Positions 2,387 through 29,622 of a DNA stretch of 57,887 bases are shown here, piece after piece. The notes under the pieces were generated by a model. It was not told where the DNA came from, made no database searches, and was given only the letters and a program-made list of their open reading frames with translations. Source of the stretch: a bacterium (GTDB lineage: Bacteria > Desulfobacterota > Deferrisomatia > Deferrisomatales > Deferrisomataceae); assembly GCA_027021615.1 (NCBI GenBank), contig JALUTY010000026.1, positions 1 to 57,887 on the forward strand, written 5' to 3'. The first letter of the stretch is position 1, and every line of letters begins with the position of its first letter. The position numbers and the translations under genes were made by a program.

Positions 2387-3352
2387 TCAGACCGTGGGCT
2401 TTCCCTCGGCTCCGAGCCACTCCGCGTAGAAGCTCATGTACTTGAACGCCCCGTCGGGCACGATGGCCACGCCCACGCCGCCTTCGGTGCGGGCCTTCTC
2501 CCGGGCCGCCCACAGGACCGCCCCGGACGAGGGGCCCACGAGCAGGCTCTCGGTCCGCGCCACCTCGATGGCGGTGCGGTAGGCGGGCTCGTCGGGCACG
2601 GTGATCGTCTCGTCCACCACCGACGGGTCCAGGATCTCGGGCTGCTTCGACTCCTCGAAGTTCTTGAGCCCGGGCAGCCTGTGGCCCCGCTGAGGCTGGA
2701 TCGCCACGATCCGGACGTCCGGGTTCTGTTCCTTGAGGTACCGGCCCACTCCCGTGATCGTGCCGCAGGTGCCGTACCCGGCGAAAAAGTGGGTGATCCG
2801 GCCCTCGGTCTGCTCCCAGATCTCGGGGCCGGTGGTCTCGTAGTGGGCGCGGACGTTGTCCGGGTTCTCGTACTGGTTGGGCATCACGTACTCGTCCCGG
2901 GTCCTCGGCCCCTCGGCGATGCTCTTGGCGAGCGCGATGGCCCCGTCTTTGGGGTGGTTGATGGGGCACAGGTCGTCCGGGGTGGGCCACACCTCCGCGC
3001 CCAGAAGCCGGAGCACGATGAGCTTCTCCTCGGGCAGGGCGCTGGGCACGGTGATGGTCGCCTGCACCCCGAGGAGGTTCGCCAGCGCCACCAGGGCGAT
3101 GCCGGTGTTCCCCGAGGTGGGCTCCACGATCTTCTTGCCCTGGGGCAGCTCCCCCCGCTCCCGAAGGCCCTTCAGCAGGTAGGCCGCAGTGCGGTCCTTG
3201 ACCGAGCCGAACGGGTTGAAGCTCTCGAGCTTGCCGTACAGCTCCATGGGCCCCTCGGGGGCGAACCGGGTTAGGCGCACAAGGGGGGTGGGATTGTCCG
3301 GGTTGGCCACCAGGTCCGCGATGCTCTCGTACACACGGCAGGAAGCAGGCAT
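2387..3352 (-). CDS. Cysteine synthase (O-acetylserine sulfhydrylase family, PLP-dependent)
   Basis: 321 residues. The start at 3352 has AGGAGA 7 bases upstream. It makes L-cysteine from O-acetylserine and sulfide, or uses a related activated serine. Visible family marks are the PLP lysine in SFNPFGSVKDR, the TSGNTG loop that binds the substrate carboxylate, the glycine-rich GTCGTITG loop for the cofactor phosphate and GPSSGA near the C terminus. Length fits the CysK/CysM family. I cannot decide between CysK- and CysM-type from motifs alone. It has its own predicted promoter and is the first gene of a possible two-gene unit with the peptidase-hydrolase fusion. Confidence 0.88.
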   Translation of the reverse strand: MPASCRVYESIADLVANPDNPTPLVRLTRFAPEGPMELYGKLESFNPFGSVKDRTAAYLLKGLRERGELPQGKKIVEPTSGNTGIALVALANLLGVQATITVPSALPEEKLIVLRLLGAEVWPTPDDLCPINHPKDGAIALAKSIAEGPRTRDEYVMPNQYENPDNVRAHYETTGPEIWEQTEGRITHFFAGYGTCGTITGVGRYLKEQNPDVRIVAIQPQRGHRLPGLKNFEESKQPEILDPSVVDETITVPDEPAYRTAIEVARTESLLVGPSSGAVLWAAREKARTEGGVGVAIVPDGAFKYMSFYAEWLGAEGKPTV

Positions 3353-27884: not shown

Positions 27885-28068
27885 GATGTTCCTCCATGAA
27901 TAAGGGGTGGTCTCGGCGTCCTTGCCGGTTGGGGCTGCCTTCAGGGGGGCAGCGTTCCCCGGGAGGGCCTCGGCCCCTCCCTTGCCTTGGGTTCGGAGCT
28001 CATGTTCGTCCTGAGTTGGTTCGCGGCACCTCCTTTCGGGCTGTGGGGACCAAGGGAATCCATCTCCC
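27885..28068 (-). promoter_or_regulatory. Long structured flagellin mRNA leader with an orphan ribosome-binding sequence
   Basis: From the predicted start point near 28068, the leader is about 184 bases. It carries AAAGGAGGTG at 28036-28027 with no suitable start codon after it. Two GC-rich hairpins follow (27961-27981, GGGAGGGgCC type; 27934-27953, GCTGCC/GGCAGC), then the real site GGAGGAAC next to the ATG. A 20-codon ORF starting at an ATG at 28003 is possible but has no ribosome site at the right distance. Confidence 0.5.
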
Positions 28069-28075
28069 TTTTTCT

Positions 28076-28102
28076 TTATCGACCGTTGCCGGCCGAACTT
28101 TA
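28076..28102 (-). promoter_or_regulatory. Sigma-28 (FliA) promoter for flagellin
   Basis: On the minus strand TAAAGTTC (28102-28095), an 11-base spacer, then GTCGATAA (28083-28076). The consensus is TAAAGTTT-N11-GCCGATAA; only two of 16 positions differ. It overlaps the last bases of the upstream TPR gene. Confidence 0.88.
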
Positions 28103-29473
28103 GGCGCCCTGGAGGGCCGCTTCTGCGAGCCGGACCCGATCCGTGATCTCGAGGTTCTCCGGGGCCTTCCGCATTGCCTCACGATAAGCGAAAAGGGCCG
28201 AGCGCATGGCGCCTTGGAACCGGTATGCATCCCCCATCAAAGTGAACGCCTCGGGCGATCTCTTGGGATCCGTCCGGGCCACCTCCTCTGCCAGATCGAT
28301 TGCGTCCTGAAACCGGCGCTCGTGCAGGCGGATCGCGGCCATGAGCAGCCTGCAGCCGGAGAACGCGGGCTCGGTTCGTGCGGCCTTTTCCAAGTGGCCA
28401 AAGGCCTCACCGTATCGTCCTGCCTCAAAAAGCAGCTCTCCCATGCTGCGGTGCATGTGTGGGTTTTCCGGGTGCAGCCTTAGGCCGGCCTGGAGCATCG
28501 ACGCCGCTTCCTTTGCCCTGTTGGCTGACCTCAGACAGGAAGCTGCGTTGATAAAGACGGCTGGATCGTGCTGCTGCCGCTCAAGCAGCGAGCGATAACG
28601 CAACAACGCCCGGTCCGACTGCCCCTTCTCTTCTTCCATCACGGCCGCAACAAGGTGGAGGAACAACGCGTCCTTTTCGTCCGTTTCCGCCTGGTTTGCC
28701 ATTGCATCCAGAGCCGTCTCAACGGCCCGCATCCCAAGATCCAGGTCTCCCACCTTCCAGTGGGCAACAGCCAACCGCCCCCACAATACCGGATCCTCTG
28801 GGTGAGTCTCCGTGGCTCTGTAGCCGGCCTCCCTTGCTTCCTCCCACTCCTGGGCGTAAAGCAGTGCATCCAGGAGTAAGGTCCAACCCGGCCGATACCG
28901 AGGGTGGCGGCGTGTCAGATCCCAGAGCTGTCCCATGGCATCCCGAAGCTTGCCCTCAGCCAAAGCGAGCAGTGCAGCGTAGTAAACGGATTCCGGGCGA
29001 TCCGGGTGCTGCTCGAGACAGTCGGCAACCACCTCCCTCGCTTCCAGGTATCGCCGTTCTCGGACCGCCACCCCAGCCACCATGCACAGCACCGTGCAGG
29101 TTCGGCTCCCGGCCAAGTAGGCGACCGCACAGGCCAGGTCACTCGCGGGGTGGTTTCCTAGCTTGAGATACGCCTCTGCCATGACAGCGACATCGTCGGC
29201 GAGAATCGTTTCGCTCTCCAGAAGCCTATTTTTTATAAACTCGATGGCAGCATGCGGTGTCGCTTCTATGATGTCGACTTTTCGATCTGCCGCGAATGAT
29301 GATGTGTGATACTTGGTTATTAGATTTTTGAGGTGCAAAGGAGAGAGGAGGTCTTCGAAGAAACTTTTCGCGTCCTCGTCAGAAATTGGGGACAGCTTCT
29401 CAAGAGCATCCAGGAATGATGCGGGGTCTCTGAAGTTGTACTTCTGATTGAGCCATTTCTCTGTAGCGCTCAT
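28100..29473 (-). CDS. TPR-repeat protein between maf and flagellin
   Basis: 457 residues, start at 29473 (GAGG upstream). Residues about 120-455 consist of helix pairs with TPR-like spacing (for example FQDAIDLAEEVARTDP and GDAYRFQGAMRSALFAYREAMRKAPEN). The first 110 residues are not TPR and look helical (FLDALEKLSPISDED). No signal peptide, so cytoplasmic. Such proteins near maf and flagellin are plausible scaffolds for flagellin modification or export, but function is not known. The 3' two-thirds have the high GC of the region; the 5' 300 bases are visibly AT-richer, like the maf gene upstream, hinting at a junction. Confidence 0.75.
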   Translation of the reverse strand: MSATEKWLNQKYNFRDPASFLDALEKLSPISDEDAKSFFEDLLSPLHLKNLITKYHTSSFAADRKVDIIEATPHAAIEFIKNRLLESETILADDVAVMAEAYLKLGNHPASDLACAVAYLAGSRTCTVLCMVAGVAVRERRYLEAREVVADCLEQHPDRPESVYYAALLALAEGKLRDAMGQLWDLTRRHPRYRPGWTLLLDALLYAQEWEEAREAGYRATETHPEDPVLWGRLAVAHWKVGDLDLGMRAVETALDAMANQAETDEKDALFLHLVAAVMEEEKGQSDRALLRYRSLLERQQHDPAVFINAASCLRSANRAKEAASMLQAGLRLHPENPHMHRSMGELLFEAGRYGEAFGHLEKAARTEPAFSGCRLLMAAIRLHERRFQDAIDLAEEVARTDPKRSPEAFTLMGDAYRFQGAMRSALFAYREAMRKAPENLEITDRVRLAEAALQGA

Positions 29474-29622
29474 TTTGGCCTCTATTTGCGTTGGTTGTGC
29501 GGAACGAGATCGCATTTGACGCGGTGTCGTTCTCGTGTGTTCCTTGGTCAGAATCTATATGCTAACGCCCTGAGATGTTGCGCTATGTAAACGAAAAGGA
29601 CGTTTGTTGTTTGGGGCTCTTG

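Follow-up and report, generated by a model that had tools for sequence, protein, structure and literature searches.

The flagellin gene in the window, as we call the whole 57,887-nucleotide stretch of Deferrisomataceae DNA that was analysed, is preceded by a real, conserved, two-part regulatory leader: near its 5' end lies an extended Shine-Dalgarno sequence that has no start codon of its own (hereafter the orphan), and close to the gene lie hairpins of the CsrA type. Comparison with related leaders suggests, with a probability that we put at about 0.55, that the orphan is a STAB-SD-like docking site for the 30S, which would stabilise an mRNA that CsrA can repress. The parts of this leader look like known kinds of element, and their combination and phylum-wide use look new; our searches of the open-access literature, with subscription papers outside their scope, turned up no paper listed as describing an orphan Shine-Dalgarno in flagellin leaders.

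The leader is headed by a sigma-28-type promoter, with boxes TAAAGTTC at 28102-28095 and GTCGATAA at 28083-28076 separated by an 11 nt spacer, whose score of 23.5 exceeds the 99th percentile of shuffled sequences (19.5). The first TAA of this promoter doubles as the stop codon with which the upstream gene (28100-29515) ends; we take that gene to be TPR-type from reading its sequence rather than from a family search. Through this overlap of TAAAG with a stop codon, promoter and coding end are fused (window 28076-28102). Read from 5' to 3', the leader carries the orphan, a hairpin that we call H1, a probable H-type pseudoknot, the CGGC[AAGGAC]GCCG hairpin and, lastly, the true Shine-Dalgarno within a small hairpin (Table 1). 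Taken as a whole, the leader has the same folding energy as its shuffles (z = 0.05). Rfam covariance models gave no match at the gathering score in this region of the window, the sole hit there, at E 0.98, being due to chance, and no family match in 20 further leaders.

Table 1. Features of the flagellin gene and its leader, in window coordinates
Feature	Position	Strand	Basis
Flagellin gene, 519 aa	26325..27884	-	PF00669 and PF00700 (Pfam flagellin N and C domains)
Flagellin mRNA leader, 184 nt	27885..28068	-	Predicted start at ~28068
Second CsrA-type hairpin, TTC[ATGGAG]GAA, over the true Shine-Dalgarno	27889..27900	-	Loop search, covariation
Upstream CsrA-type hairpin, CGGC[AAGGAC]GCCG	27914..27927	-	A-N-GGA loop search, covariation
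Probable H-type pseudoknot	27934..27960	-	6/6 order leaders tested, paired changes
20-codon frame from the first downstream ATG (28003)	27941..28003	-	Not conserved, probably untranslated
Hairpin H1, GGGAGGG/CCCTCCC	27961..27981	-	Paired changes among relatives
Orphan extended Shine-Dalgarno GAAAGGAGGTG, 11 nt complementary to the 16S tail	28027..28037	-	Sequence, sister-genome 16S tail, recurrence
Sigma-28-type promoter TAAAGTTC-N11-GTCGATAA	28076..28102	-	Sequence and promoter score

The original prediction, of a perfect Shine-Dalgarno about 32 nt after the predicted transcription start and without a usable start codon, was borne out on both counts. The motif AAAGGAGGTG lies at 28036-28027, inside GAAAGGAGGTG at 28037-28027, with 32 nt from the predicted start to its A and 35 nt to GGAGG, and no ATG, GTG or TTG occurs 4-12 nt after this GGAGG. 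We took the 16S tail, GGATCACCTCCTTTCT, from two sister genomes, G001 (same genus) and G009; the genome's own assembly lacks it. Within the window alone the orphan motif is unremarkable: AAAGGAGG occurs four times against 1.6 expected, a count reached by 8 of 100 shuffles. Its significance comes from comparison with relatives.

We compared 145 flagellin leaders, of which 11 belong to the order (including L017), 24 come from loci of a phylum search and 110 were fetched; they cover 106 genomes (order included) and 47 families, almost all of one phylum. The underlying flagellin search matched 178 of 297 genomes, and leaders were taken among the matches listed. Matches starting at a residue number of at least 3 (G097:C8, G117:C14, G171:C14 and G003:C71) were dropped, as were G169:C92, G052:C305 (near its contig start), L018 and weak FlgL-like matches; in the set retained, L042 and L072 have their start codon misplaced by 3 nt, and L043, L044, L048 and L063 are near-identical. 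Defining an orphan as an exact complement of the 16S tail of at least 9 nt at -200 to -30, we found one in 46 of the 145 leaders, where dinucleotide shuffles average 1.3; in a control stretch at -400 to -230, a complement of this length occurs in 2 of 143 leaders. According to textbooks, a Shine-Dalgarno positions a start codon; in 28 of the 47 sampled families (46 of the 106 genomes), flagellin leaders retain a near-perfect one that has none. Of the 109 leaders with a sigma-28 promoter, 41 have an orphan, compared to 5 of the 36 that lack this promoter (Fisher p = 0.0076), and from the predicted start to the orphan's GGAGG the median distance is 28 nt, with 32 of the 41 lying at 45 nt or less. 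Counting against a stabilising role, the other nine lie 53-88 nt from the predicted start, 99 of the 145 leaders have no orphan of at least 9 nt, and 19 of the 47 sampled families have none.

The bases around the orphans indicate what they might pair with. At 56 upstream AAGGAGG sites, chosen by this core, the core is mostly preceded by A and followed by T-G-A, which continues the 16S complement, and at 90 AAGGAGG sites at real starts it is mostly preceded by C and followed by A. Sites chosen by position form a first flanking pair in 19% of cases, as in shuffles, that is, no hairpin. Since its flanks continue the 16S complement and do not pair into a hairpin, the orphan looks like a 16S-pairing element, shaped neither for CsrA nor for a start codon. 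In the stretch 4-11 nt past the orphan, start codons show no enrichment (7 of 46 leaders, with an expectation of 11.7; for ATG, 5 against 5.3). The orphan's GGAGG is predicted to be no more accessible than when the sequence downstream is shuffled (Wilcoxon p = 0.89), and a search for a conserved internal partner complementary to the orphan gave an unconvincing best match, averaging 2.9 nt compared to 2.4 nt in shuffles. In the window's minimum-energy fold the orphan motif is paired, which speaks against a stabiliser.

Closer to the gene, the anatomy of the leader matches that of CsrA-repressed flagellin leaders, and for this CsrA part the comparative case is strong. An A-N-GGA loop on a stem of at least four pairs is found upstream of the Shine-Dalgarno in 87 of the 145 leaders, compared to 5.2 in shuffles, and CANGGAG stands at the Shine-Dalgarno in 114. 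With sites chosen by position, the four pairs of the upstream site form in 71-83% of the phylum leaders and, at the Shine-Dalgarno site, the three innermost pairs form in 74-86%. At both hairpins most pairs beat shuffles, and on the whole they beat slid partners, with two exceptions at the Shine-Dalgarno site: the innermost pair hardly varies (86%, with 81% in shuffles), and the fourth lies within the range of shuffles (49%, maximum 52%). The genome itself encodes csrA (G000:C83:51664-51819) and fliW (G000:C34:16229-16585), and both are found in the same 7 of the 12 order genomes, which are those with flagellin-type matches. Second FliW copies occur at G011:C303:4613-4969 and G009:C2:80370-80726, the former ~600 bases from a flagellin gene.

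This arrangement has close counterparts among characterised leaders. The hag mRNA of B. subtilis has two CsrA sites, one of them over the Shine-Dalgarno (PMC7652899), and C. jejuni flaA carries two ANGGA hexaloop hairpins with a GGA spacing of 21 nt and is CsrA-repressed (PMC4894983). The window's leader shares with both the two GGA sites, one over the Shine-Dalgarno, together with a FliW gene, and with flaA the A-N-GGA hexaloop hairpins, here with 26 nt between the two GGAs. It is unlike the 45 nt flaA leader in its ~140 nt 5' extension with orphan, H1 and pseudoknot. In the E. coli glgC leader, CsrA likewise bridges a hairpin site and the Shine-Dalgarno, but the excerpted account of glgC describes no orphan. 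By analogy with these systems, CsrA very probably represses the flagellin leader and FliW relieves this repression; for Geobacter, a paper on FliW describes direct CsrA binding to the proposed targets as still to be validated (PMC13407953). The CsrA-type control proposed earlier is well supported by the anatomy of the hairpins at 27927-27914 and 27900-27889, not by way of the orphan, nor of the two GC-rich hairpins to which the original prediction pointed. In three order leaders (L022, L027 and L028) an extra hairpin, GGGGC-TTCCCC-GCCCC, stands between the CsrA-type hairpins; it is absent from the window's genus.

Orphans are also found outside flagellin leaders. The motif GAAAGGAGGTG occurs 8 times in the window's own genome (G000), 12 times in G001, 5 times in G009 and 15 times in G010, and 38 of these 40 sites were examined, two of the 15 in G010 having no locus. 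Three of the 38 are the antisense of the 16S tail, and others are ordinary sites 3-13 nt before a start codon. Where an orphan has a recognisable downstream gene, this encodes flagellin (three cases), a LivK-type binding protein (two orthologues), a porin-like protein (two orthologues, with a Pfam match below its cut-off), a multihaem cytochrome (two), an AmiS/UreI-type membrane protein or one of three other proteins with signal-like N termini. An orthologue (L204) of the cytochrome leader L175 has a GTG at 3 nt, so it was scored as an ordinary site; two orphans lie inside upstream reading frames (L212 and L203), and for three others (L177, L187 and L207) there is no target. The two porin-like leaders, L179 and L197, are from two species; both have exactly the orphan block GAAAGGAGGTGATACGGCA, behind a sigma-70-like promoter, and their sequences differ around it. 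The non-flagellin targets appear to be abundant exported proteins. A clear CsrA hairpin pair is present in none of the non-flagellin orphan leaders examined, meaning that the orphan can do without this pair; the LivK-type leaders L178 and L191 each have a single hairpin, rich in wobble pairs, whose loop contains AGGGA, and in L193 a hairpin lies at the Shine-Dalgarno. In L178 and L191 the orphan comes a few bases after the stop codon that ends the gene upstream and 118-119 nt ahead of the binding-protein start, where it could mark the 5' terminus of a binding-protein mRNA that is processed and stable.

In the mechanism that we propose, two loops near the gene would present A-N-GGA, the second over the true Shine-Dalgarno, and a CsrA dimer would bridge both hairpins and block initiation until FliW removes CsrA, as in B. 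subtilis hag and C. jejuni flaA. Near the 5' end, the start-less extended Shine-Dalgarno would pair with the 16S tail and hold a non-initiating 30S; that a 30S docks there we consider quite probable. In this order, H1 and the probable pseudoknot lie between these two devices, perhaps as a spacer or a further block. The docked 30S would shield the mRNA from 5'-end-dependent decay, the message would thereby survive during CsrA repression, and abundant protein could be made from a long-lived mRNA. A stabiliser beside CsrA sites would be useful, since the hag transcript level falls on CsrA binding in B. subtilis (PMC6529632).

The nuclease that such a shield would act against appears to be encoded: an RNase J-like gene in the window's own genome (G000:C122) scores 388 bits, just under the curated cut-off of 400, such a gene is present in six of the seven order genomes with CsrA and FliW, and the copy in G001 has Pfam RNase J domains. 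Genome G003 has an orphan (L007) and no RNase J match, which counts against a stabiliser, and on balance we lean only slightly towards 30S docking protecting the mRNA from decay of the RNase J type. The precedent is the STAB-SD of the cry3A mRNA (PMC4113751, PMC3997798). In Bacilli, a strong Shine-Dalgarno, even a start-less one, stabilises mRNA, and protection at a distance is efficient there and much less so in E. coli, which has RNase E (PMC3997798). Like the cry3A element of Bacillus thuringiensis, the orphan is a non-initiating Shine-Dalgarno complementary to 16S, close to the 5' terminus of a long leader for an abundant protein, in a genome with an RNase J-like gene. The two differ in that the host here is not a Firmicute, that the mRNA is a sigma-28 flagellin message with CsrA-type hairpins, and that stabilisation is something we infer here.

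Other readings of the orphan have to be weighed against a stabilising dock. A 30S might instead dock at the orphan on standby and move to the structured, CsrA-guarded start once this opens, stabilisation being secondary. The stretch between the two sites is long and structured, with a probable pseudoknot, as would suit such a route, and in E. coli a standby site 100 nt before the start, together with 5' structure, serves tisB (PMC7708055). However, a pairing of 11-12 nt would presumably hold the 30S and not let it slide, the distance from orphan to start codon varies widely (82-193 nt), and the motif is also found in LivK-type and porin leaders without a clear CsrA hairpin pair. Standby of the tisB type, moreover, relies on single-stranded RNA, not on a Shine-Dalgarno; the window's leader resembles tisB in having structure and a docking region ~100 nt upstream, but the dock here is a strong Shine-Dalgarno, and there is no sign here of a sequestering RNA or of processing. 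These points make standby an unlikely primary role. Less probable still is a third CsrA site that titrates or loads CsrA. The orphan does contain AAGGA, CsrA sites contain GGA (glgC has four; PMC7652899), and the flaA mRNA of C. jejuni titrates CsrA (PMC4894983), but the first pair around the orphan forms no more often than in shuffles (19%, against 79-86% at both downstream sites), conservation runs to TGA, which extends the 16S complement beyond what CsrA needs, and orphans occur in leaders without a clear CsrA hairpin pair.

A role for the orphan in translating a short upstream frame, and in regulating flagellin by that translation, is very improbable: the 20-codon frame that begins at 28003 does have an AGGA, if a weak one, but this frame is broken in L017, the frames found after orphans are short and unrelated, and start codons are not enriched there. 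We find it hardly credible that the orphan is a functionless, purine-rich stretch that arose by chance or persists as a relic; that the motif is not unusual within the window alone would fit such an origin, yet its presence in 46 of 145 leaders, where 1.3 are expected, and across 28 of 47 families would not.

If the orphan does act as a stabilising 30S dock, this would explain how a repressed, untranslated flagellin message survives until secretion relieves CsrA control. It would also provide a rule for finding stabilised mRNAs, namely GAAAGGAGGTGA close to the 5' end and lacking a start codon, and a naturally occurring part to use in expression work. More tentatively, and at somewhat under even odds in our judgement, the recurrence of the motif hints that a non-initiating Shine-Dalgarno may be a general 5' stabiliser throughout the phylum, used in the leaders of abundant exported proteins and coupled in flagellin to CsrA hairpins, which would keep the repressed message poised. 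The STAB-SD principle would then extend beyond Firmicutes and become a widespread regulatory part.

The middle of the leader is more restricted. The two GC-rich hairpins originally placed before the true ribosome site do exist (27981-27961, and GCTGCC/GGCAGC at 27953-27934), but the second is half of a probable pseudoknot, and the CsrA-type hairpins at 27927-27914 and 27900-27889 had been missed. In this pseudoknot, stem S1 would pair GGGG (27960-27957) with CCCC (27947-27944), and stem S2 GCTGCC (27953-27948) with GGCAGC (27939-27934). The fold is possible in all six order leaders tested (window, G001, L017, L022, L027 and L028) and is reached by 0.7-3.7% of shuffles, the stems having been aligned manually on the structure, a procedure that favours it. 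Paired changes are seen in S1 (G-C to A-U in L022) and in S2 (C-G to U-A in the window, G-C to A-U in L028). H1, S1 and the upstream CsrA-type hairpin were also recovered independently by RNAalifold from a MAFFT alignment. Support for H1 across six sequences is modest, with two pairs changed on both sides, as reached by 77 of 500 shuffles, and a covariation score reached by 20 of 500. By eye, the remaining leaders of the order, L007 (G003) and the paralogues L021, L023, L024 and L026, are without this middle.

A covariance model of H1 and the pseudoknot (R1), run on 54 sources (the window and 53 loci), clearly matched only its training members L017 and the window; the next match, at window 3092-3191 (20 bits, E 0.016), is probably due to chance. 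Among the sequences compared, the H1 and pseudoknot domain is seen only in this order. One short match in G010 (L016) was considered as a related leader and rejected, the sequence around it being unrelated. The contig that carries L017 (JAJRTN010000168.1) is labelled Candidatus Hydrogenedentota, yet its flagellin and leader closely match those of the window's genus, and it is probably a mis-binned contig or part of a mislabelled genome.
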